Assembly (NCBI GenBank): GCA_947586255.1 | Contig: CANPXP010000017.1 | Span: 1 to 54,382 of the forward strand | DNA length: 54,382 nt | Direction of reading: 5' to 3' | From: an uncultured Lachnospiraceae bacterium | GTDB taxonomy: Bacteria > Bacillota > Clostridia > Lachnospirales > Lachnospiraceae | Shown: positions 20,430-31,313 of the stretch, in pieces | Layout of the letters: each line of letters starts with the position of its first letter | Numbering within the stretch: position 1 is the stretch's first letter | Notes under the pieces: generated by a model | The model's input: the letters and a program-made list of their open reading frames with translations, nothing else | Database searches by the model: none | What the model was told of the DNA's origin: nothing | Translations under genes and position numbers: made by a program

Positions 20430-20735
20430 ACGCAACAAGCGCCCTCTGCCGACTGATCGGCAAAGGGCGCATCACACGCGGTACCACCTTCATTTATCAC
20501 TCTGTGATCCCTGACAGGATCCGATCCGCTAACGTGGATCAGGCGTGAGCGCTTACTGCGGCCTCTGCCCGCGCGGTGCGCGGCATCTCCCTTCTGCGCC
20601 CAGGTTCCAGAGCTACCTTCCGCGATGCCCTTCCGAAGAAGCCTTCCAGCACATGGCTTCTCTCTCTGGCGGCGGCCGCCGCGTACTCCTCTCTGTCATC
20701 ACCTTTATCACAGACCCTCTGGTCTTACATTTCTG
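20430..20735 (-). promoter_or_regulatory. T-box leader of valS
   Basis: The minus-strand leader contains the T-box consensus AAGGTGGTACCGCG (20490-20477) followed by a stem-loop terminator (20470-20439) and the valS start. Upstream lies a structured Stem I region with GAGGAGTA (about 20692-20685) and a GGTAGCTCTGGAAC block (about 20614-20601), in which GTA is a candidate valine specifier. Uncharged tRNA pairing at the T-box would stabilise an antiterminator. The T-box is certain; the specifier is a guess. Confidence 0.92.
20435..20470 (-). terminator. T-box-controlled terminator in the valS leader
   Basis: The stem GCGCCCT(T)TGCCGA / TCGGCAGAGGGCGC is followed by TTGTTG on the minus strand. 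Its 5' arm begins just after the T-box sequence, the standard position. Confidence 0.75.
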
Positions 20736-20740
20736 ATATT

Positions 20741-20769
20741 ACTATAGCCAGCCGCGGTTTTTTTGTCAA
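20741..20769 (-). promoter_or_regulatory. Promoter of the valS T-box transcript
   Basis: Consensus TTGACA (20769-20764), 17-bp spacer, TATAGT (20746-20741) on the minus strand. The predicted start at about 20734 gives a 320-base leader, normal for a T-box RNA. Confidence 0.85.
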
Positions 20770-20818: not shown

Positions 20819-21757
20819 TTACCATTCCTCCCGCTCGGGAATGATCTTGTACACCGCCGTGTTCTGGTACACCCGCGGCTCCGCGTGAGCAAACAGCAGC
20901 GTGCCGTCTATGGGCGAGCGGATCTCGTCGATCACTTCCCCCTCATAGCAGTCCGCGATGCAGGCCAGCACCTGCCCTTTGCGCACGTGCTCCCCCGCCT
21001 CCGCCTTGCCCTCAAAGAACCCGGCCGAGCGGTTCCGCACCGTCACCATATCCTCCGTGGAGACGACCTTCGACACATACCCCTCGAAACCGTCATAGTC
21101 GATCACGTCCGCCTTGCGCAGGAAATTCAGTACGGACTCCACGGCCTGTCTGGCGCTGCTTCGGTCGATCTCCTCCGTGGTAGTCGTGTAGACGGAGAAG
21201 GCCTTCGTCTCCCAGATCTGCCAGTTATAGTTGAGGGTGGCAGTGTCGAAAGGGCGCGGCGTGTGCAGCAGCACATAGGGAAAACCGAATTCCCTGGCCA
21301 GCTCCACATCCTCAAAACCCGTCTTCATCACGCGGATGTGGGGCACGAATCTGCCCGGCATATAGAAGGAGGCGAACTGCAGGCCGTACCGGTAATCCTT
21401 GATCGCCTCGAAGAGTCCGCCGGCGATCCGCTGGGTCGTCTCGCCCTCGTCGTACCCGGGGAACATCCTGTTGATGTCCGTGTTGTCGATGCTCCAGAAG
21501 CGCTTCTTGATATTCATGGAATAGGGATTGACGCAGGGGACGACCAGAATCTCTTTTCCACTGTGAATACGCCCCTCCGCCTCCAGCTCCTTCAATTTTC
21601 TGACCAGCTGGGAGCAGCAGTAGAGCTGCTGGTTTTCATTGCCCCGCATACTGCCCACGACGCAGGCCGCCCGCTCTCCCTGTCCGAAGGAGTAGCCGGT
21701 CACGCGGAAGTCGTCGCGGTACAGCGCCTTGATCTCAAACAGAATCTTTTTTTCCAT
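20819..21757 (-). CDS. AstE/aspartoacylase-like paralogue lacking the zinc ligands (predicted pseudoenzyme)
   Basis: A 312-residue protein clearly paralogous to its upstream neighbour and to the succinylglutamate desuccinylase/aspartoacylase (M14-like) family: same length, same NPYSMNIKKRFW...DINRMFPG block and the same C-terminal barrel (EVIDEIRSPIDGTLLF). The metal site is degenerate. The usual HGxE is MRGNE (His replaced by Arg38), the DIHAS motif is LQFAS with no histidine, and the catalytic VVEMG is VYTTT. The substrate-binding Asn-Arg (NR, 96-97) remains. The start has an AAGGAT site and overlaps the partner gene by 23 bases. A binding or regulatory partner role is more likely than catalysis; a re-purposed active site cannot be excluded. 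Confidence 0.8.
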   Translation of the reverse strand: MEKKILFEIKALYRDDFRVTGYSFGQGERAACVVGSMRGNENQQLYCCSQLVRKLKELEAEGRIHSGKEILVVPCVNPYSMNIKKRFWSIDNTDINRMFPGYDEGETTQRIAGGLFEAIKDYRYGLQFASFYMPGRFVPHIRVMKTGFEDVELAREFGFPYVLLHTPRPFDTATLNYNWQIWETKAFSVYTTTTEEIDRSSARQAVESVLNFLRKADVIDYDGFEGYVSKVVSTEDMVTVRNRSAGFFEGKAEAGEHVRKGQVLACIADCYEGEVIDEIRSPIDGTLLFAHAEPRVYQNTAVYKIIPEREEW

Positions 21758-22679
21758 ACAGTATCCTTCCTAGCAGGGAGCCCTCGCTGACCACGGGATA
21801 TTCCCTGATGGTAAAAAGCCAGCCGTCCGCCGGCGACTTGATCTCGTCGATCACCTCTCCCGTCAGGGGATTCACGATCCTGCCGATCAGATCGCCCGCC
21901 CGCAGAGAGGCGCCGTGGTTGACGCTCTTTAAGAAAATGCCGGAGGCGGAGGCATTTAAGAAGCAGACGTCGTCATTGTCCGCGGAGACGACCGGCGTCC
22001 GCACGTCGAAATCCTCCCCGTCCCAGACGCCGAGGCGCTTCATCAGGTGGACGATGCCCGCGAAGAGCTGATCGCCGTAGCTCTGCGTGATGCGCATACC
22101 GACGCCCATCTCCACCACCAGCGTCGGCGTGTCCGCCGTGTTAAGGCTGTGCGCGAAAGTGGATTCCAGCACCGTGCTCGCGCCGTGGATCCAGATGAAA
22201 TCCACGTTGGCCTCTTTCGCCCAGGGCAGCAGCCTGTCGGCGTGCAGTTCGTTGATGCGAATCTGCGGTACCTCCGTCAGGAAGATATTGCTGGCGTGGA
22301 TGTCCAGGACCAGATCGGAGCCGGCCACGCCGCGCACGATCTGCGCCGCCAGATACTCGTTCATATCCCCCTCCGCGCTGCCCGGAAAAATGCGGTTCAT
22401 ATCCAGATCAAAAGCCGGAATGCCCCGCGTGATAGAATCGATGCCGAAAGGATTTAAAGCCGGGTAAATATCGACCGTTCCTCTCAGGCATCCCATATTT
22501 TTCTGTATATAGTCGGACAGCTTATAGCACACGTACTGTCCCTCCAGCTCGTCCCCGTGAATGCCGGTGACGACGCTGATTCTCCTGCCGTTTCCGCCGT
22601 CCTCCGGCTGCAGCCGCATCCTGCGGATCCGCAGCGTCTCGTCCACCGGAAGTTCGACCTGCACAACCGTCTCAATCAT
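21735..22679 (-). CDS. AstE/aspartoacylase-like zinc deacylase or carboxypeptidase
   Basis: A 314-residue member of the succinylglutamate desuccinylase/aspartoacylase family (M14-like zinc fold). Zinc ligands His41 and Glu44 (GIHGDE) and His128 (DIHAS), substrate-binding Asn95-Arg96 and the catalytic Glu190 (VVEMG) are all present. A C-terminal barrel domain (about 225-310) follows, as in the AGTO-type members. Such enzymes remove acyl or aminoacyl groups from an alpha-amino-acid-like substrate. The start has a GAGAGG site. It is the fourth gene of an operon with ATP-grasp, alpha-E and transglutaminase-like genes, so its substrate may be the product of that ligase. Confidence 0.82.
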   Translation of the reverse strand: MIETVVQVELPVDETLRIRRMRLQPEDGGNGRRISVVTGIHGDELEGQYVCYKLSDYIQKNMGCLRGTVDIYPALNPFGIDSITRGIPAFDLDMNRIFPGSAEGDMNEYLAAQIVRGVAGSDLVLDIHASNIFLTEVPQIRINELHADRLLPWAKEANVDFIWIHGASTVLESTFAHSLNTADTPTLVVEMGVGMRITQSYGDQLFAGIVHLMKRLGVWDGEDFDVRTPVVSADNDDVCFLNASASGIFLKSVNHGASLRAGDLIGRIVNPLTGEVIDEIKSPADGWLFTIREYPVVSEGSLLGRILYGKKDSV

Positions 22680-22717
22680 CTCTTATCCTCTCCGAAACCT
22701 CATGTATGAAGCGCCCT

Positions 22718-23506
22718 CTATACCGGCGTCACCTCCACCAGAATGGTCTGTCTCTGCCTCGCCTGCCCCGTGAAGACGCCCCTGTTGATAGAGCAGTCCC
22801 GGTAGTCCCTGCCGTGGGAGATCTTGATATGGCCGTCCTCCACGGGCACGTTGTTGGTGGGATCGAAGCCCTGCCAGCGCCCGCCGTCACAGACCTCCAC
22901 CCAGGCGTGGCTCTCCCCTTCTCCCAGCAGCATCCCGACGACATATCTGGCCGGTATCCTGTCCGCCCTGCACAGGGACAGCAGAATGTGGGAGTAGTCC
23001 TGACAGACGCCGCGGCCCAGCGCCAGCGCGTCCTCGGCGGAGGTGCCGATGTCCGTCACGCCCTTCTCATAGCGGAGGCTTTCATGCACAGCCTCCGTGT
23101 AGACCCGCAGCCGGTCAGCCGGCGGCAGTTCTCCGGTCCGCTCCCTGCAGCGCGCAAGCAGCTCTCCGATCCGCTCTCCGGGGCGCGTCAGCGGCGTCTG
23201 GTAGCGATAGACCGAACAGTCCGTCGCTTCCTGTTCTTCGCACGAAGCCGTGATGTCCGTCACCGCCGTGCCGTTCACATCCACCTGAAAGAGACTGTGC
23301 GCCTCCTCCGCCTTGCCGTACAGCATTCTGTTGCCGAAGGAATCGGCGCCCTCCCGCACGCTGCTCTCCGGGGATATCCTGTACGCGCACGTCTCGATCC
23401 GCTGCGTTCCCGTCGTCTTCGGCAGACATTTCAGCGTGTAGACGTGACTGTGTACCGGCTCCGAGAACGCGAGCTCCATATGATAGTGGAATCGTAATGT
23501 TTTCAT
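22718..23506 (-). CDS. Transglutaminase-like cysteine protease
   Basis: A 262-residue protein with an N-terminal beta domain of the bacterial transglutaminase N type (about 1-110) and a papain-like transglutaminase core. The triad is Cys168 (RGVCQDYSH), His200 (ESHAWVEV) and Asp215 (GFDPTN). Bacterial members usually act as peptidases rather than cross-linkers. It starts four bases after the alpha-E stop. This trio of circularly permuted ATP-grasp, alpha-E and transglutaminase is a known conserved cassette proposed to make and process a peptide or peptide tag; no substrate has been established. No signal peptide, so cytoplasmic. Confidence 0.9.
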   Translation of the reverse strand: MKTLRFHYHMELAFSEPVHSHVYTLKCLPKTTGTQRIETCAYRISPESSVREGADSFGNRMLYGKAEEAHSLFQVDVNGTAVTDITASCEEQEATDCSVYRYQTPLTRPGERIGELLARCRERTGELPPADRLRVYTEAVHESLRYEKGVTDIGTSAEDALALGRGVCQDYSHILLSLCRADRIPARYVVGMLLGEGESHAWVEVCDGGRWQGFDPTNNVPVEDGHIKISHGRDYRDCSINRGVFTGQARQRQTILVEVTPV

Positions 23507-23510
23507 GTTG

Positions 23511-24179
23511 TCAATCCTTGCGCAATGTATCAGCCAACGCTACGACCCTATCATAGTCTATCTGGTCTTCTTCCGCAAGTTTTTTCAACTCTTTCAGATT
23601 TTTCTCGTCATAGTGCAGATTGGTGCGCGCGATCCGCCCCGCGAGGCGGTGCACCTCCCTGACGATGCTCTCCCTGTTCATCTGCAGCCGTCCGTACAGA
23701 TCCAGACGCTCGATCCGTTTGCCGATCTTGATGACGTTTCGTATGTTTTCATTCTCGATCATGTCGTCCACGATGCCCCAGAATGCCAGAATGTTGTCCT
23801 CCACCTTCTGCAGCCCCACCAGCGGCGCCCTTGACACTCTGCTCTTCTTCATATCATAAACCGAGAGCTGTATATAAGTGATGGGCTCGCTCCCGATCTC
23901 ATTTCTGAGCACGATGGCATTGTCGTACGCCCGCATCAGATTGGAGTAGATCGAGTTGGGATCGTTTTCATCCGAGATATAGCGGTTGCAGAAATCTTCC
24001 CTGGAACTGTATATGTTGGGAATATCCAACTGCCTGCAGAAAGCCGCGTAGTTGTCCATATCCATATCTATCATCCTGTCAAAGCTGTCCGCGAACAGCC
24101 TCGCCGACGTGTAGACCCGCTCGGAATATCTGCCGAGCCAGAACAGTCTGTCTAAGTTTTCTACTGAGATAATACCCAT
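23511..24179 (-). CDS. Alpha-E domain protein (DUF403), short form
   Basis: A 222-residue all-helical protein. The N-terminus ISVENLDRLFWLGRYSERVYTSARLFADSFDRMID is the alpha-E signature, and ENILAFWGIVDDMIENENIRNVIKIGKRIERLDLYGRL follows later. Typical family members are around 300 residues, so this one is about a quarter shorter, apparently in the middle, with both ends present. Alpha-E proteins nearly always accompany circularly permuted ATP-grasp proteins and are thought to assist them, but have no known reaction. Its start overlaps the ATP-grasp gene by 19 bases. Confidence 0.87.
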   Translation of the reverse strand: MGIISVENLDRLFWLGRYSERVYTSARLFADSFDRMIDMDMDNYAAFCRQLDIPNIYSSREDFCNRYISDENDPNSIYSNLMRAYDNAIVLRNEIGSEPITYIQLSVYDMKKSRVSRAPLVGLQKVEDNILAFWGIVDDMIENENIRNVIKIGKRIERLDLYGRLQMNRESIVREVHRLAGRIARTNLHYDEKNLKELKKLAEEDQIDYDRVVALADTLRKD

Positions 24180-25477
24180 GTGTCTTTAAATCCTCCTCCC
24201 TGCGACGAATTGACGATGAAGGAATCCGGATCTCTGGAGAAGCGCGTCAGTCCGCTCTTCCAGACGATCGGTTCGTCCACCATGAGCACGAACGCCCGCA
24301 GATCCGCCTTGCGCGGCGTGCGTCTGGCATTTTCCAGAATATCGATATCCATGAAGTCGATGACCTCCTGGGCGATAAAACGCCTCGGCTCCCTCTTTAG
24401 CAGCGCGATGAAATCCTCCTTCTGCGCGGCGGTCATCCTGTCGGCGAAGACGACGCCGTAACCGCCCGCCTCGGCCACGTCCTTCAAGACCAGCTCGTCG
24501 AAGTGCTCCAGCACATACCGCATATCTTCCTCGTAGTAGGGAAGATAGGTTGGCGCGTTCTGCAGGACCGGCTCCTCGCCCAGATAATAGCGCACCATTT
24601 TCGGCACGAAATAGTAGATGCCCTTGTCGTCGGCCACGCCATTGCCCGGCGCGTTGAGGAGCGCCACGTGTCCCTTGCGGTACACGTCGTATATGTGCGG
24701 GATGCCGATGACCGACTCCTCGTTGAAGGTCATCGGGTCGAGGTACTCGTCGGAGATCCTCCGGTAGACCGCGCCCACCTTCTCACGCTTGCCGGAGTAA
24801 TCGACGAAGTAGAGATAATCGTCCTCCACCACGAGCTCTCTGCCCGTCGCCAGGTGCGCGCCCGTCTTCTCCGCGAAGTAAGAGTGCTCGAAGTATGCCG
24901 CGTTGTAGCGCCCCGGCGTGAGGATCACCGTGTGCCCGCCCGTATTCACATAGTCCATCGTCCAGCGAAGCAGCTTCGCGTAGTCCCGGTTATCCTCCAC
25001 GTGGTAGGTCTCGAAGGTGTCCGGGCTGCTCTTCCTGCAGATCTCTCTGGCGATCATCGGGTAGGACGCGCCGGAGGGCACGCGCAGATTGTCTTCCAGC
25101 ACATACCAGCTCCCGTCTTTGCCCTGCACCAGATCGATGCCCGCGATATGGGTGTAAATTCCCTTGGGCGGCACGACGCCGTCGCAGGGCGCCAGATACC
25201 CGGAAGAAATGTACACAAATTCCTCCGGCACAACGCCGTCCCTGACAATCTTCTTCTCTCCGTAGATATCCCGGATAAAACAGTTTAACGCCATGACCCG
25301 CTGTTTCAGGCCTTTTTCCAGATAGGCGAACTCCTCTTTCTTAATGATCCGGGGGATCGTGTCGAACGGAAAAAGCTGCTCCTTAAACTCATTGTCCTTG
25401 TATATGCCGAATTTGACGCCGTAACGCGCCAGCAGCTCGTTCACCGTCTCCGCCCGCCTGGTCAGTTCTATCTCCAT
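24161..25477 (-). CDS. Circularly permuted ATP-grasp protein (DUF404/DUF407)
   Basis: The start at 25477 (MEIELTRRAETVNELLARYGV) follows a GGAGGCGAGG ribosome region; a longer frame adds 17 atypical residues. The 438-residue product contains the family blocks KEEFAYLEKGLKQRVMALNCFIRDIYGE, GIDLVQGKDGSWYVLEDNLRVPSG (ATP-grasp core), LTPGRYNAAYFEHSYFAEKTGAHLATG and VLKDVAEAGGYGVVF. ATP-grasp ligases make amide bonds through an acyl-phosphate; those of this circularly permuted group are inferred to ligate amino acids or peptides. First gene of the operon, preceded by a 180-base leader with its own promoter and terminator-like hairpin. Confidence 0.9.
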   Translation of the reverse strand: MEIELTRRAETVNELLARYGVKFGIYKDNEFKEQLFPFDTIPRIIKKEEFAYLEKGLKQRVMALNCFIRDIYGEKKIVRDGVVPEEFVYISSGYLAPCDGVVPPKGIYTHIAGIDLVQGKDGSWYVLEDNLRVPSGASYPMIAREICRKSSPDTFETYHVEDNRDYAKLLRWTMDYVNTGGHTVILTPGRYNAAYFEHSYFAEKTGAHLATGRELVVEDDYLYFVDYSGKREKVGAVYRRISDEYLDPMTFNEESVIGIPHIYDVYRKGHVALLNAPGNGVADDKGIYYFVPKMVRYYLGEEPVLQNAPTYLPYYEEDMRYVLEHFDELVLKDVAEAGGYGVVFADRMTAAQKEDFIALLKREPRRFIAQEVIDFMDIDILENARRTPRKADLRAFVLMVDEPIVWKSGLTRFSRDPDSFIVNSSQGGGFKDTWVLSQ

Positions 25478-25548
25478 AATCCTCGCCTCCCGCAACACGC
25501 AACACGCACCCGCAGCGAGATGAAACACGCTTTGCGGGTTGCACGCTC

Positions 25549-25581
25549 ATAAGCAGACTCGCGATGCTTCGCACTGCTTAT
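25549..25581. repeat. Inverted repeat in the leader of the ATP-grasp operon
   Basis: Arms ATAAGCAG (25549-25556) and CTGCTTAT (25574-25581) enclose a nested GCGA-TGCT-TCGC stem. It follows the terminator-like hairpin on the minus strand. The right arm is part of a 20-bp sequence, CTGCTTATTCGCGCAAAAAA (25574-25593), repeated exactly at 358-377 after the lysine-riboswitch terminator. Confidence 0.6.
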
Positions 25582-25587
25582 TCGCGC

Positions 25588-25621
25588 AAAAAAAGACGCC
25601 CGGAATGCTCCAGACGTCTTT
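25588..25621 (-). terminator. Strong terminator-like hairpin in the 5' leader of the ATP-grasp operon
   Basis: On the minus strand AAAGACG-T-CTGGA-GCAT-TCCGG-G-CGTCTTT forms a 13-bp stem (two G-T pairs) followed by seven T residues. It lies downstream of both the kinase-DegV stop (25730) and the promoter at 25664-25692, so it ends the kinase operon and also stands in the leader of the ATP-grasp operon as a possible attenuator. Confidence 0.85.
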
Positions 25622-25663
25622 GTCGCACACTGTTATTTACCTGTAAAAGGAACTACACTATTT

Positions 25664-25692
25664 TATATAGCACTTGCCGCGCGCTTTGTCAA
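25664..25692 (-). promoter_or_regulatory. Promoter of the ATP-grasp/alpha-E/transglutaminase operon
   Basis: Consensus TTGACA (25692-25687), 17-bp spacer, TATATA (25669-25664) on the minus strand. The predicted start at about 25657 is roughly 35 bases before the terminator-like hairpin and 180 bases before the first start codon. Confidence 0.82.
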
Positions 25693-25729: not shown

Positions 25730-28429
25730 CTACCACCACATATTGTCGCTCTTCTTCTTAAGGTACATGAGGCCGAACACGCCCACGCCGCAGTTGCTGG
25801 AGACCGTCGCCGACGCTTTCTGCAGGATAATCCGGTCGAAGTGAACGTATTTCTCCACTTCCTCCTGAATCTCCTCCAGCTGCCGCACGCTGCAGCCGGC
25901 ATAGGTGAGGAACAGAACTCTCTCGTCGATCTGTCTGGCGTGGGAGAGCAGCTGCCTGATATACTTCGCCTTCGCCCGTCTGATGCTGCCCGTCTCAATC
26001 TTCCACAGTTTCAGGTCATTCTGCGACATGCGCAGCACCGGGTGCAGGTTCAGCACATGGCACAGCCCGTGCACCGCGCCGCTGAGCTTGCCGTTGCGGT
26101 ACAGCGCGTCCGTGCTCGGCACGAGGAAGTTGGAGCACACCACGTCCTTAAATTCCTCCAGATCCTGGCAGATCTCCTCGACGCTCTTGCCCTCCTCCGC
26201 AAGCTGCGCCGCGCGCAGCACCATCAGGCCGTGTCCGCTGCTGATGTGGGCGGAGTTGAACACCGTCACGTTGCCGAAGCTTCTGCTCGCCTGCAGCGCG
26301 TTCGGATAAGCGCCGCTCAAGCCCGTCGTCGCCGTGATGTGCAGGACGTGCTCGGCCTCCTTGAGCGTCTCCGAGAAGAATTCCTCGTACTTCTCCGGCT
26401 CGGCGGTGGAGGAGTGCGCGTAGTTGCCCTCCGTCTTCAGATACTCCAGAATGCTGTCGCTGGACACCTCGAACAGATCGCAGAACCGTCCTTCCTTCGT
26501 ATGGACGTAACAGTACATCAGCCTGATCTGATATTTCTCCAAAAGTTCCTTCGGCAGATCGCAGATGCAGTCCGCCGTGACGGCGAGCTTGCGCTTTCTC
26601 GCGCTGGTCACCTGTCTGACCGCGCTCTCCCCCTCGTCCTCCGTCTCCTTCTCCGCGGCGGTGTACTCCACCAGCTCCGGCGGCAGATATTTGAGCAGGC
26701 TCGCCTCGAGAAGCGCCGAGTTGATCGGCTTCGCGAGATAGCCGTCGAAGCCCATATCGCGATAGACCTGCTCCGCGTTCGTCATGACGTTGGCGGTCAG
26801 CGCCAGGATCGGCGTCTTCTGGCAGTAGCCCTTGACCTGGGAGCGCACGGCCCGCATCGTCTCCTCGCCGTCCATATCGGGCATCATGTGGTCCATGAGA
26901 ATCACATGGTACGCCTTCTCCGCAGTCTTTTTCAGGCACTCCCGGCCGCCCGCCGCCGTCTCCACCGTCATGCCCGTGCCGCGCAGGAGCTTGACGGCCA
27001 CCATGCGGTTCATCTCGTTGTCGTCCACCACGAGTATGCTGGCGTCCGGCGCGGTGAAGATCTGCTTATACTTAGAGCGGTAATCCAGCTGCTTCTGGGC
27101 GGAGAAATTGATTGTGCCGATGGGCTTCACATTGACGATGCGCTGCCTGACCTCCAGCGTAAACGTAGAACCCTGGCGATAGATGCTGTCCACATACAGC
27201 CTTCCGCCCATCATCTCCGCGAGCTGTCTGGAGATATTCAGCCCCAGGCCCGTCCCCTCGATATTGCGGTTCTCCCGCCCGTCTATGCGCTTGAAGGAGG
27301 AGAAGAGATTGTCCAGATCCTCCTTGCGGATTCCCATGCCCGTGTCGGCCACCGAGACGCGCAGCAGAATCTCGTCCGGCGCCGTGCGCTCCGCCTTGGC
27401 CGTCAGTGTGACGGCGCCCTTCTCCGTATATTTGACCGCATTGGTCAAAAAGTTTGTCACAATCTGTTTGATGCGCACCTCGTCGCCGTAGAGCATGGAC
27501 GGGATCTCCGGATCGATATCCACCTTGAACTCCAGTTCCTTCTGGTGCGCGCGGATCCAGATCAGATTTACCAGATCGCTGAACATGGCGCTGATCTCAT
27601 ACTGCGCCGGCACGATCTCCATCTTGCCGGACTCAAGCTTTGACAGGTCCAGGATATCATTGATCGTGGTGAGCAGCATCTTGCTCGCATTCTGAATATT
27701 GATCGCATTCTCGGCGATCTCATCGGAGATATCCTCACGCAGAATCATCTCGTTCAGACCGATGATGGTGTTGATGGGCGTGCGGATCTCATGGCTCATG
27801 TTGGCGAAGAAGAGATCCTTCGAGTGCGCGATCTCCTCGATCTCCTCCTTCTGCTGCTGCGCCAGCCGCCGCTCCTTGTCGTAGGTCACGAACTGAATCC
27901 GCATCAGAATGCCGATAAAGATGCTCACCACCACCAGCGTAATGCAGGAATCCAGATAGCTGTACTCGCTGCTCACCACCATGACGAACTGCGGGTGCGT
28001 GTAGGAGAAGATATAGGTGCCCAGAAAAGCCGCCAGGGAGACTGCCATGGCGATCACCACGTCCCGCCCTCTGAACAGCACGAATATGTAGACCAGGCCG
28101 AGCACCAGCCAGACCGGTGTGCCGCTCCCCACACCGCCGCTCATGATAAAGACCAGCGGAAACAGCACGAGATTGTAGATCAGGACAAGCACCCAGGAGG
28201 CCAGCTTCGTCTGCTGCCGCTCCGTCGCCATGTAGAGGGCCACACCCGCCACGACGCACATCGGCACGAGCGCTGCGAGAACGATGGGCGTCACGCCGCA
28301 GGCCACCCTCCCCATACCGATAATGGAGCCGAAGAAGGCAAGCAGCAGAACCATCCGGCTGACCCGTTCCTCCAGACTTAAATTTTCGGGAAACAGCGAT
28401 CGGCTAAATTCTCGTATCTTCCTGATCAT
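25730..28429 (-). CDS. Hybrid histidine kinase - receiver - DegV fusion
   Basis: The start at 28429 (MIRKIREFSRSLFPENLS) has a GGAG site; a longer frame is not supported. The 899-residue protein has about six membrane helices (20-195), a HisKA domain with the H-box MSHEIRTPIN (His213), a HATPase domain (N box NFLTNAVKYT, G boxes DTGMGI and GTGLGL), a receiver domain with phosphoacceptor Asp513 (LMDHMMPDMDG), and a C-terminal DegV/EDD fold (about 612-899: TADCICDLP, SSTAEP, TATTGLSGAY, NSAHISSGHG). DegV/FakB proteins bind fatty acids; here the lipid site would be a cytosolic sensory or output module of a kinase. It is the last gene of a three-gene signalling operon. Confidence 0.9.
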   Translation of the reverse strand: MIRKIREFSRSLFPENLSLEERVSRMVLLLAFFGSIIGMGRVACGVTPIVLAALVPMCVVAGVALYMATERQQTKLASWVLVLIYNLVLFPLVFIMSGGVGSGTPVWLVLGLVYIFVLFRGRDVVIAMAVSLAAFLGTYIFSYTHPQFVMVVSSEYSYLDSCITLVVVSIFIGILMRIQFVTYDKERRLAQQQKEEIEEIAHSKDLFFANMSHEIRTPINTIIGLNEMILREDISDEIAENAINIQNASKMLLTTINDILDLSKLESGKMEIVPAQYEISAMFSDLVNLIWIRAHQKELEFKVDIDPEIPSMLYGDEVRIKQIVTNFLTNAVKYTEKGAVTLTAKAERTAPDEILLRVSVADTGMGIRKEDLDNLFSSFKRIDGRENRNIEGTGLGLNISRQLAEMMGGRLYVDSIYRQGSTFTLEVRQRIVNVKPIGTINFSAQKQLDYRSKYKQIFTAPDASILVVDDNEMNRMVAVKLLRGTGMTVETAAGGRECLKKTAEKAYHVILMDHMMPDMDGEETMRAVRSQVKGYCQKTPILALTANVMTNAEQVYRDMGFDGYLAKPINSALLEASLLKYLPPELVEYTAAEKETEDEGESAVRQVTSARKRKLAVTADCICDLPKELLEKYQIRLMYCYVHTKEGRFCDLFEVSSDSILEYLKTEGNYAHSSTAEPEKYEEFFSETLKEAEHVLHITATTGLSGAYPNALQASRSFGNVTVFNSAHISSGHGLMVLRAAQLAEEGKSVEEICQDLEEFKDVVCSNFLVPSTDALYRNGKLSGAVHGLCHVLNLHPVLRMSQNDLKLWKIETGSIRRAKAKYIRQLLSHARQIDERVLFLTYAGCSVRQLEEIQEEVEKYVHFDRIILQKASATVSSNCGVGVFGLMYLKKKSDNMWW

Positions 28430-28460
28430 CACACTCTCCAACCTTTCCGCATACTCTCCG

Positions 28461-31313
28461 TCACGCCATGCGCTCCGAGATTCTGTTCTCCCATGAATCC
28501 AGAAGCTCCGCCGCGCCGGGGAAGTCAAAATCCTCCACGCTGCGGCCGATCGCCCCGGCCATCTCGCCCAGTTCCATATCCTGCAGGCGGCAGCCCGCGA
28601 TTTTCTTCAGAAGCTCCTTCACACCGTCGCTCTCGAAGTTCTCCAGCTTATCGCGCAGCTGCGAAAGCAGCTCCCGCAGAGCGTCCGCCCCGATCTCCCG
28701 CGCGGCATCCGCCGCATCCTCCTGCGCCCTGTCCTGCCCGGCCCCGGCGGCATGATACCCCTCCGGATAGAGGAAGCGGTTGACCGACAGCGCGCGCAGC
28801 AGCATACCGTGCCGCTCCATCAGCTCCCCGTGGTGCTCCCTGATATAGTCGGCGCGGTTCTCCTTGCCCGCCATCTCCAGCTGCAGGGCCAGCTCCGCGA
28901 GCTGCTCCGCGCCGATCCCCTTGGAATTGCTCTTGAGCGCGTGCACCGCGATGGCATAGTCCTTCCAGTTTTCCTCCGCGTACAGCTTCGCAAGCTGCTC
29001 GTTTCTCGCGGCCCCCTGTTCGTGATACATCCTGACGATATCCCGGAAGCCCTCTCTGTCGCCGCAGTAGGAAAGCCCGGTCTTGACGTTGATGCCCGCC
29101 CGGGCCAGCGCCTCCAGCCCGTCCGTTCCCGCTCCTCCGTTGCCATCCTGCGCGGCGGCGTCTTCCGTCCCGGCCGTCTGTGCCGCATTCCCGGCCGCCG
29201 TCTGTTCCGCGGCCTGCGTTTCCGCCGCCTCAGCCACGGGAAGCTGCTTCTGTTTCGGTATGTAGCGGCGCAGCATACGCTCCAGGACGCTCAGCTCGAT
29301 GGGCTTGGCGATGAAGTCGTTGAAGCCCTCCTCCATAAACATCTCCCGCGCGCCGCCGATGGCGTTCGCGGTAAAGGCGATGACAGGCACGGACTGGAAG
29401 TAGGCTCCCGGCTTCTGCCGCAGCCTGTGCAGTGTCTCCACACCATCCATGTCCGGCATCATGTGATCCAGGAATACGCAGTCGTACTCCATGGTATTGA
29501 TCTTTTCCAGCGCTTCCTGACCGCCCAGCGCCGACACCGTCCTGATCCGGTAGGGCAGGAGCAGCCTCGCCATAACCTTCAGGTTCATGGCGTTGTCGTC
29601 CACCACGAGAACTTTGGCGTCCGGCGCGACGAAGCGGTGCCGGATATCTCCGTGCAGCTCCTCCGGCTGCATCGTCCGCTGCCCGTTGAACACCGCCGCG
29701 ATGGACAGTACCGTAAACGGCTTGTAAATGCGCATCATATTGCTGCCGGCTTCGGGCTCCTGACCGTAGTCCATGACCAGCACGACCGTGAGTTCCCGCG
29801 CCAGCTCCTCGAAGAACGCCCTGTCCTCGCAGTACTCCTCCCAGCCGATAAACACATGGGAGTAATTCTCCAGCTGCCGGCGGCGCTTCAGCTCCGGAAG
29901 ATTCCTGCAGATGCGGAACATGATGCCGAACTGCTCGGCCATGTGCCGGATGCTCCTCTCATATCCTTCCCGCACTACCGGCGAGCCGTACTTATCCATG
30001 TTGATATAGCAGGCCGCGTACAGATTGCCCTTGTTCCGGACGGAGACGATCGGCGTCTCGTCCAGCACCTTCTGCGGAACTGCGAAGCGGAACGCCGTCC
30101 CCTGGCCCTCCGTGCTCTCCACCGTGAGAAAGCCGCCCATATTCTGCACGAGCGCATGGGTGATGGACAGTCCCAGCCCCACGCCGCCCTCTTTTCTGTT
30201 GCGCTTCGAATCCACCTGGCTGAAGCTGCCGAAAATCTTCTCCATATTCGCCGGGCTGATGCCGATTCCGGAATCCCTGATCTCCACGATCAGATTGATC
30301 CCGTACTCTTCCTTGCGGAAGGTGATCCGCATAACCACGCCGCCCTCCTGCGTGAATTTGATGGCGTTGTCGAGCAGATTCATCACGATGCGCCTCAGCT
30401 TCTGCTCGTCGCCCACCAGATTGCTCGGCAGCGCCGCGTCGCAGTCCACGATCAGCTCCAGCTTCTTGCCGTTGTCCTTCGTCACCGCCATATTGATGAT
30501 ATCCGTGATGGTCGAGGTGATATTGTAACTCTCCTCCACCGGTTCCATCTTGCCGCTCTGCAGCTCGGAAAAATCCAGAATGTTGCTGACCGTGGAGAGC
30601 AGATTGCGCCCCGCGGCCTGTATGTCGACGATATCTCCCCGGACGCTCTCCGGCAGCTCCTCCTGCAGAATCGCCTCGCTCATGCCGCATACCGCGTTGA
30701 TCGGCGTGCGGATCTCATGGGAGATATTCACCAGGAAATCGTCCTTGCTCCGCTCGATCTCCTCCAGCTCAAGAATATTTTCCATGAGAAGCTCGTTCGT
30801 CTCAAGCCTTGTGCGTATCGTGATCCAGATGACGAGAGAGATCACATAGGCGGATATGACATGCAGCACGATCCTGATAATCTCATTGGGCGCATCCGCC
30901 GTGACCGTGTGCAGCACGAACATGTGAAGACCTATGATCAGCGTCGTGAAACCGACGCCCATATAGACAATTTCCGGAATAGAAAAAACCCCCATCAGCA
31001 CGATCACCGCAAACATGGTGGACAGCATGGAGGTAAAATTGTCGGAGTGCACCGCGTAGACGGTGAAGTTGAACCACGACAGAAGCGCTATGATCTTGGC
31101 GCGAAAGGCAAATTCCCGAAAATTGCCGATGCAGATCACCCACGGCGCCACGGTGGTGACTGCCAGAATCTCTATGACGAGAATATTCCAGTGAAGCAGA
31201 ATCGCCGAGACGAAGGTGCCGAGAGAAAATACCGTGTAGATTCCCAGCACGCTGTGCTCCAGCTTCCGGTTCATTCTTTCATTGTCAAATCGTCTCTTCT
31301 CCAAGATAAGCAC
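28461..31313 (-). CDS. Hybrid sensor histidine kinase with receiver(s) and Hpt domain
   Basis: A 950-residue protein, GTG start at 31313 with an AAAGGA site. It has about six membrane helices (15-165), HisKA with ISHEIRTPIN (His199), a HATPase domain (NLLDNAIKFT, DSGIGI, GVGLGL), a segment (about 430-560) that resembles a degenerate receiver without the acidic pocket, a full receiver with Asp616 (FLDHMMPDMDG), an Ala/Gln/Gly-rich linker (about 688-735) and an Hpt domain with AVHALKSNSKG (His791). A helical C-terminal extension (about 870-950) may be a further degenerate Hpt. The domains allow a complete His-Asp-His relay. Probable phospho-target: the REC-HD-GYP protein encoded just upstream. 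Confidence 0.9.
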   Translation of the reverse strand: MLILEKRRFDNERMNRKLEHSVLGIYTVFSLGTFVSAILLHWNILVIEILAVTTVAPWVICIGNFREFAFRAKIIALLSWFNFTVYAVHSDNFTSMLSTMFAVIVLMGVFSIPEIVYMGVGFTTLIIGLHMFVLHTVTADAPNEIIRIVLHVISAYVISLVIWITIRTRLETNELLMENILELEEIERSKDDFLVNISHEIRTPINAVCGMSEAILQEELPESVRGDIVDIQAAGRNLLSTVSNILDFSELQSGKMEPVEESYNITSTITDIINMAVTKDNGKKLELIVDCDAALPSNLVGDEQKLRRIVMNLLDNAIKFTQEGGVVMRITFRKEEYGINLIVEIRDSGIGISPANMEKIFGSFSQVDSKRNRKEGGVGLGLSITHALVQNMGGFLTVESTEGQGTAFRFAVPQKVLDETPIVSVRNKGNLYAACYINMDKYGSPVVREGYERSIRHMAEQFGIMFRICRNLPELKRRRQLENYSHVFIGWEEYCEDRAFFEELARELTVVLVMDYGQEPEAGSNMMRIYKPFTVLSIAAVFNGQRTMQPEELHGDIRHRFVAPDAKVLVVDDNAMNLKVMARLLLPYRIRTVSALGGQEALEKINTMEYDCVFLDHMMPDMDGVETLHRLRQKPGAYFQSVPVIAFTANAIGGAREMFMEEGFNDFIAKPIELSVLERMLRRYIPKQKQLPVAEAAETQAAEQTAAGNAAQTAGTEDAAAQDGNGGAGTDGLEALARAGINVKTGLSYCGDREGFRDIVRMYHEQGAARNEQLAKLYAEENWKDYAIAVHALKSNSKGIGAEQLAELALQLEMAGKENRADYIREHHGELMERHGMLLRALSVNRFLYPEGYHAAGAGQDRAQEDAADAAREIGADALRELLSQLRDKLENFESDGVKELLKKIAGCRLQDMELGEMAGAIGRSVEDFDFPGAAELLDSWENRISERMA

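Follow-up and report, generated by a model that had tools for sequence, protein, structure and literature searches.

The locus described here poses two questions: what do five tightly packed genes do together, and when are they transcribed? The genes lie on the minus strand of a 54,382-nucleotide (nt) stretch of DNA from an uncultured Lachnospiraceae bacterium (contig CANPXP010000017.1 of assembly GCA_947586255.1, positions 1 to 54,382; hereafter the window) and encode a circularly permuted (CP) ATP-grasp protein, an alpha-E protein, a transglutaminase-like protein and two AstE-like paralogs, AstE1 and AstE2. The most informative part of the locus is the leader ahead of these genes, which contains an apparently undescribed nitrogen-regulon hairpin. 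Since this leader is common to the ATP-grasp operon and to nitrogen genes, the operon very probably belongs to the Lachnospiraceae nitrogen-assimilation regulon. We give a probability of roughly 0.6 to the full explanation, in which an operon of the nitrogen regulon is controlled by attenuation at the hairpin and runs a cycle of a small acidic-amino-acid amide. The features concerned are as follows, with R1 denoting the covariance model described below.

25664..25692, minus strand: promoter-like site TTGACA-17-TATATA, read from the sequence.
25589..25627, minus strand: leader hairpin (stem 25621-25592) with a T tract after it, assigned to the nitrogen-regulon leader motif by R1 match, folding and family covariation.
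24161..25477, minus strand: CP-ATP-grasp, likely an amidoligase (Pfam PF14403 and PF04174; CP_ATPgrasp_2 E 5.8e-134).
23511..24179, minus strand: alpha-E, short form (Pfam PF04168, E 1.6e-20, matching profile positions 7-164 of 294).
22718..23506, minus strand: transglutaminase-like cysteine hydrolase (Pfam PF01841, Transglut_core E 4.2e-19; PF08379, bacterial N-terminal domain).
21735..22679, minus strand: AstE1, AstE/AspA-type zinc amide hydrolase with predicted ligands intact (Pfam PF24827, AstE_AspA_cat E 1e-20; residues; structure model).
20819..21757, minus strand: AstE2, metal-less AstE paralog with an invariant altered pocket (Pfam PF24827, AstE_AspA_cat E 2e-10; residues; model).

In the window leader a stem of 13 bp is joined to a T tract (-25.7 kcal/mol, z -4.28). 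Relatives have hairpins of a single sequence type, AACAAAGGCGTTYTGC-loop-GCAGRGCGCCTTTTTT, upstream of ATP-grasp, and a good promoter often precedes them. Among 84 loci with a stretch upstream of ATP-grasp, 50 passed a regular expression and 28 rows were hand-picked (27 loci plus the window). In the resulting alignment standard pairs fill 97.3% of pair cells, both sides vary in 9 of the 13 pairs, and the covariation score was reached by 0 of 500 shuffles. R1 was trained on these ATP-grasp leaders only; one locus, L074, has leader letters identical to those of training row L067. In the window's own genome R1 scores the operon leader at 42.2 bits (E 2.6e-6), the window being itself a training row. 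A match lies within 400 nt of ATP-grasp at E<=0.01 in 52 of the 82 loci having at least 120 nt upstream. Some loci that lack a near leader have an operon extended upstream, with an ATP-binding cassette (ABC) transporter and a cytidylate-kinase-like gene before ATP-grasp. The binding protein of this transporter is nearest to aspartate/glutamate binders, and weaker R1 matches precede the transporter in two loci (L076, E 0.0034; L096, E 0.0023). By clustering of solute-binding proteins, 11 of 87 cassette loci, several being closely related, have an acidic-amino-acid-type transporter no more than 6 kb away. No Rfam family matched the leader at E<=0.5 in 20 leader-bearing loci, nor in the window (cmscan, Rfam 15). 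Neither the leader nor the way in which this family senses nitrogen was found described in the literature searched, which left most subscription papers uncovered.

We ran R1 first on 16 chosen genomes and then on 120 genomes of the family, where it matched in 84 at E<=0.003. A column-permuted control model matched in 2 of the same 120. The control retained the same stem pairs in another order (1.208 vs 1.21 bits per position) and also had its 5' flank columns permuted; because A-T pairs moved inward, its T tract was slightly changed. Taking listed R1 matches with E<1e-3, one strand per place, gave 103 sites, the search filters losing weak matches. Fifty-seven of them precede nitrogen genes and 8 precede ATP-grasp (6 being training rows), a total of 65 in 49 genomes. 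The downstream genes are glutamine synthetase III (25), glutamine synthetase I (11), ATP-grasp (8), amtB (6), glnK (5), asnB (3), gltB (2), and asnA, purF, gdhA, carA and pyrG (one each), with one representative per nitrogen type confirmed by NCBIfam or Pfam. Other sites, uncounted here, precede genes that are nitrogen-related by family: amino-acid binding proteins (L201, L281), an ABC ATPase (L210), a PucR regulator (L216), an ornithine-cyclodeaminase-like gene (L252) and an aminotransferase (L260). Outside the family, R1 matched at E<=0.001 in 10 of 148 other genomes of the phylum. Of the 11 sites inspected there, only one, before an amtB-like gene (L286), is nitrogen-related.

Two further sets of sites were seen. 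In L228, L241 and L253 the hairpin stands before a protein with a pyruvate-phosphate-dikinase-type ATP domain, and in L203 and L234 before look-alike LuxR-type regulator genes; one member of each set was checked by Pfam. The LuxR-type gene is a possible regulator within the regulon.

The position of the hairpin relative to the promoter suggests how it might work. A promoter scoring at least 10 of 12 lies upstream of 34 of the 57 nitrogen sites (shuffled mean 2.2), 5 of the 8 ATP-grasp sites (0.26) and 11 of the 38 others (0.82). At 32 of the 34 promoter-bearing nitrogen sites, 12-20 nt separate the end of the -10 box from the stem, which puts the start of the hairpin no more than about a dozen bases into the transcript. 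In the window this distance is longer than usual, at about 42 nt. Promoter-proximal attenuation is a likely mechanism, for which we infer the direction of control and the antitermination step. Transcription from the promoter at 25692-25664 would stop by default at the hairpin about 35-65 nt on. When glutamine or ammonium is short, some factor would keep RNA polymerase going, or hold the 5' arm AACAAAGGCGUU unpaired. The five genes would then be made alongside glutamine synthetase, PII/AmtB and glutamate synthase.

The operon itself and its conservation are near certain. In the window all five frames are open, complete and near-overlapping: alpha-E overlaps ATP-grasp by 19 bp, the transglutaminase-like gene follows after 4 bp and AstE1 after 38 bp, and AstE2 overlaps AstE1 by 23 bp. 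The ATG start of ATP-grasp agrees with that of relatives. ATP-grasp, alpha-E and transglutaminase are adjacent in cassette order, which identifies them as members of that cassette; Anbu is absent as the fourth gene, and slots four and five are AstE-like by Pfam. A search with ATP-grasp across the 120 family genomes gave matches in 19. The full set of five, identically ordered, occurs in ten genomes besides the window's, nine with all frames open and one (G036) with an in-frame stop in the transglutaminase gene. In G037 the five genes are present and frameshifted, in G076 and G114 the cassettes are cut by contig ends, G083 holds a fragment with stops and the G005 match looks spurious. In this sample the AstE pair is present in all 12 cassettes (window included) that retain the three core genes and lie on a contig with room for it. 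A scan of a species-genome collection with an AstE2 profile confirmed at least 581 relatives, of which the best 80 were kept; 71 of these loci hold the five genes in one order and on one strand (62 clean, 9 with split hits). The other 9 loci are truncated at contig ends, disrupted or rearranged, one (L111) lacking the three core genes. Since this set was chosen by closeness to AstE2, it says nothing about the frequency of standalone pairs. Records of Pseudobutyrivibrio and Butyrivibrio carry the operon.

The original prediction of one conserved operon of five overlapping or close minus-strand genes is therefore borne out by frames, Pfam, the 71 of 80 loci and the ten other family genomes. It had also placed a single consensus promoter upstream. 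TTGACA (25692-25687), a 17-bp spacer and TATATA (25669-25664) are indeed there; the second hexamer is imperfect, which is why the consensus scan does not list the site, and the terminator-like hairpin before the first gene had gone unmentioned. Between the transglutaminase and AstE1 genes, in 22680-22717, a pattern scan listed neither a promoter nor a terminator. The predicted intact hydrolase with a catalytically dead sister holds for zinc chemistry, as detailed below, and the predicted logic of a ligase plus trimming is supported.

Copies of the operon also occur in records labeled Treponema or Spirochaetales (L064, L092, L099), L092 with a strong leader match; these may be transfers or mis-binned contigs. 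Three genomes contain cassette remnants: G094 (L036 6700-7065), G025 (L037 8231-8518) and G019 (L034 2521-4000). In G094 and G025 the start of ATP-grasp joins the end of AstE2 directly, in frame in G094 and out of frame in G025, and in G019 ATP-grasp runs into transglutaminase. The leader hairpin is retained in the remnants of G094 and G019. The operon is lost repeatedly through internal deletion.

Solved relatives were found by sequence for ATP-grasp (3n6x) and the transglutaminase-like protein (3isr); the same search found none for alpha-E, which has one gene in the window's genome. In the transglutaminase-like protein C168, H200 and D215, which we take to be the catalytic triad, are conserved in at least 95% of 75 sequences. 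No protein of the operon has an NCBIfam equivalog; the nearest is DoeB, at 59.4 bits for AstE1 and 37.2 bits for AstE2 against a cut-off of 402.7. AstE1 has the AstE/AspA fold together with the His, Glu, His and catalytic Glu of that family. These are H41, E44, H128 and E190, presumably zinc ligands and catalytic Glu by analogy with AstE/AspA, and all four are kept in 73 of 73 cassette rows. AstE2 keeps the fold and lacks this residue set. When 105 pairs are aligned jointly, every AstE2 row shows Arg at H41, Glu at E44, Gln at D126 and Tyr at E190, and at H128 the residue is Ala (74), Thr (23), Ser (4), Pro (3) or Val (1). The likely substrate-binding residues N95 (105), R96 (104) and R141 (105) are kept. 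Invariant in all 105 AstE2 rows are R38, G39, E41, Q43, Q44, D94, N96, Q127, S130, R142, D171, N176, W179 and Q180. Sixty AstE2 columns are conserved at 97% or more and 58 in AstE1, and median identity to the window copies is alike for the two proteins, at 62% and 64%. This conservation of AstE2 indicates that selection maintains a function and that the gene is not decaying. The AstE2 model has a predicted local distance difference test score (pLDDT) of 91.5 and structural matches to 3cdx, 6twm, 2qj8, 3na6 and CphZ; the AstE1 model is moderate (pLDDT 78.6) and matches DoeB 6twm, 3na6, 3cdx and CphZ 8ein/8eip. Judging from these replacements, an AstE2 guanidinium may take the metal's place.

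The AstE pair is also found outside the cassette. A search with AstE1 revealed 18 loci (L149-L166) in 18 of the 120 family genomes where the pair stands without the cassette, the upstream side being cut off in G045. Cassette-linked pairs number 12 in the same sample, or 13 counting G076, where the pair lies on a contig ending in a transglutaminase piece (L167). Seven genomes with standalone pairs hold a cassette or remnant elsewhere (G029, G031, G037, G070, G074, G094, G114). In 12 of 19 fetched loci a large protein (1250-1286 amino acids, one cut by a contig end) follows the pair directly or nearby; the one tested is the single-chain formylglycinamidine ribonucleotide (FGAM) synthase PurL. 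A carA-like gene comes next in three of the standalone-pair loci. Both purL and carA encode glutamine-using enzymes. Cassette, pair and purL occur together in G026 (L032), and in G025 (L037) the cassette remnant adjoins purL.

The two settings come apart in the AstE1 tree and in the AstE2 tree: the 'nocassette' label, carried by 19 rows, requires 3 changes in each against shuffled means near 17. The trees were built by a quick method from 71 of the 105 pairs (all 32 non-cassette and cut rows, 38 of the 72 other cassette rows taken at random, and the window), with ten gene hits having a stop in the aligned stretch excluded. By these sequence trees, cassette-linked pairs form a lineage of their own with two exceptions, the cassettes L031 and L032, whose pairs group with standalone ones; L167 (G076), cut by its contig end, also departs from the pattern. 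Because the trees split the pairs by setting, the combination of a live and a dead enzyme is older than either setting. Three standalone AstE1 rows have lost the first zinc ligand. The original prediction had tied the pair to the cassette, and numerically this fails. Its expected co-occurrence stands in part: the pair is present in all 12 family cassettes with room, as its own lineage, and it is also found alone. Since it stands alone as well, the pair is a reusable module, and the addition of AstE genes can no longer be read as the mark of a new pathway.

Pseudomonas controls its Anbu operon, one of the known systems with which this locus can be compared, from promoters of the NtrC/sigma-54 type. 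That operon has the same first three genes in the same order and is induced by nitrogen limitation in Pseudomonas (PMC6376114, PMC8050072). PMC6376114 covers the operon order, its expression in nitrogen starvation and phosphate release by its ATP-grasp protein. In P. putida, PP_2685 (Anbu) rises by 4.4 and PP_2688 (CP-ATP-grasp) by 4.0 log2 units on nitrate versus ammonium (PMC8050072). The present operon differs in lacking Anbu, in carrying AstE1-AstE2 in its slot and in having a leader hairpin as the proposed control. A proteasome-beta gene (PF00227) was not found in the window's genome (2.78 Mb, 84.8% complete), and the AstE pair therefore fills the hydrolase slot. The Rlo operon of P. aeruginosa likewise combines an ATP-grasp, a transglutaminase-domain protein and a peptidase; however, there the ATP-grasp is RimK-like, the transglutaminase membrane-bound and inactive, and the peptidase aspartic (PMC12239564).

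AstE1 shares fold, zinc ligands and catalytic Glu with the DoeB/AstE/aspartoacylase family, but it scores far below the equivalog cut-offs and has a metal-less partner in all pairs examined. Cyanophycin synthetase is an ATP-grasp enzyme. CphZ, an AstE-fold hydrolase to which AstE1 can be likened, acts on the dipeptide from that nitrogen-rich polymer as the last hydrolase of a nitrogen-rich amide (PMC12661447). The cyanophycin pathway was rejected as a candidate here: all 120 family genomes, the window's included, lack a synthetase over the TIGR02068 cut-off.

From these comparisons we tentatively propose that the enzymes build and hydrolyze a small acidic-amino-acid amide, a chemistry and substrate class that we consider possible, at rather less than even odds. 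CP-ATP-grasp with alpha-E would join a carboxylate to an amine as an amidoligase, and the transglutaminase-like enzyme would cleave or transfer that amide. Free acidic amino acids would then be released from the small product by AstE1, a hydrolysis resembling that of the cyanophycin dipeptide by CphZ. AstE2, with the substrate-binding N-R-R kept and Arg for the first zinc ligand, may bind substrate or product and form or tune a mixed complex with AstE1, which we rate slightly better than an even chance. The AstE pair would thus occupy the place of the Anbu peptidase in the proteobacterial operon.

A different function was considered, in which the cassette would attach short peptides to proteins as tags or cross-links, for a pupylation-like turnover in nitrogen shortage, and AstE1/AstE2 would remove or recognize the tag. 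Tagging has been proposed for the Anbu operon (PMC6376114), a transglutaminase-like gene is present and nitrogen control would suit amino-acid recycling. However, the genome lacks a detected proteasome-beta gene at its 84.8% completeness, and AstE-family enzymes of known substrate act on small molecules (DoeB, CphZ; partly general knowledge). We regard tagging as unlikely. Somewhat less likely still, the hairpin could be the terminator of a small regulatory RNA, or a 5' stabilizer, with the operon read from another promoter or by constant leakage. In the window a short RNA would be made, since the best promoter precedes the hairpin and the scan lists no other. This reading does not sit well, however, with dozens of protein-coding genes from a single pathway having the hairpin at a near-fixed spacing from the promoter, often with only 30-100 nt from hairpin to coding sequence.

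It is very improbable that the leader represents an ANTAR site, where a NasR/EutV-like protein binds an antiterminator of two hairpins. In other bacteria such sites stand before nitrogen genes of the types seen here, and leader terminators before nitrogen genes are common to both. An ANTAR site requires a pair of stem-loops whose six-base loops have A in the first and G in the fourth place (PMC3369931), whereas most sites here have a single hairpin at the transcript start, 12-20 nt from the -10 box, with no room for a first hairpin and with varied loops that by eye (no ANTAR model was run) are not the A1/G4 hexamer. The cyanobacterial glnA RNA and Downstream-peptide motif, leaders before PII, glutamine synthetase, glutamate synthase and amtB (PMC2864571), differ from this hairpin in taxa and architecture. 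Finally, an artefact in which R1 merely finds strong terminators, some by chance before nitrogen genes, is the least probable: some matches are ordinary 3' ends, including 10 of the 11 inspected in other genomes of the phylum, but the control model matched in 2 of the 120 genomes against 84 for R1, and 57 of the 95 non-cassette sites precede nitrogen genes (binomial tail 3e-88 for an assumed 1% background).

Several observations weigh against nitrogen-controlled amide cycling by this operon. An ATP-spending ligase is no obvious response to nitrogen shortage. The leader is found in only 52 of 82 loci, and in 25 of 55 among those outside training. In the window's own genome the operon leader is the only match that R1 lists at E<=1, although the same leader can be seen by eye before glnA. 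Among the 103 sites, 38 do not precede the twelve tested gene types and many of these resemble ordinary 3' ends. Standalone AstE pairs outnumber linked ones (18 vs 12), and the R1 search did not find the leader before standalone pairs; a weak match in L163 (E 0.088) is about 5 kb upstream of the pair. For Y. bercovieri, PMC6376114 reports that Anbu was found neither to interact with proteins from the rest of the operon nor to act as a peptidase.

Taken at its widest, the locus could belong to an undescribed, family-wide RNA attenuation regulon (glnA, glnN, glnK-amtB, gltB, asnB, gdhA, carA, purF, pyrG, amino-acid transporters and the amidoligase operon) with a new antiterminator, and to an Anbu-less nitrogen-economy system with an obligate pair of AstE1 and arginine-for-zinc AstE2 acting on an acidic-amino-acid amide. 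We hold this combined proposal at just under even odds. The cassette is widespread and its role is unconfirmed in the literature consulted; the leader that its Anbu-less form shares with nitrogen genes in a distant phylum points to a nitrogen-economy role and offers a handle on nitrogen sensing in a dominant gut family.

Beyond AstE2, the right boundary of the operon is marked by one further feature.

20460..20769, minus strand: promoter 20769-20741 (promoter scan 11/12) and T-box-like leader 20708-20460 (T-box match).

The T-box-like leader has E 1e-18, but at 87.6 bits it is below the 93-bit gathering score. By eye, the gene after it is valine--tRNA ligase-like. Upstream of the operon, at 25730-31313 of the window, two large open reading frames resemble hybrid sensor kinases by eye, the first seeming DegV-like at its end.

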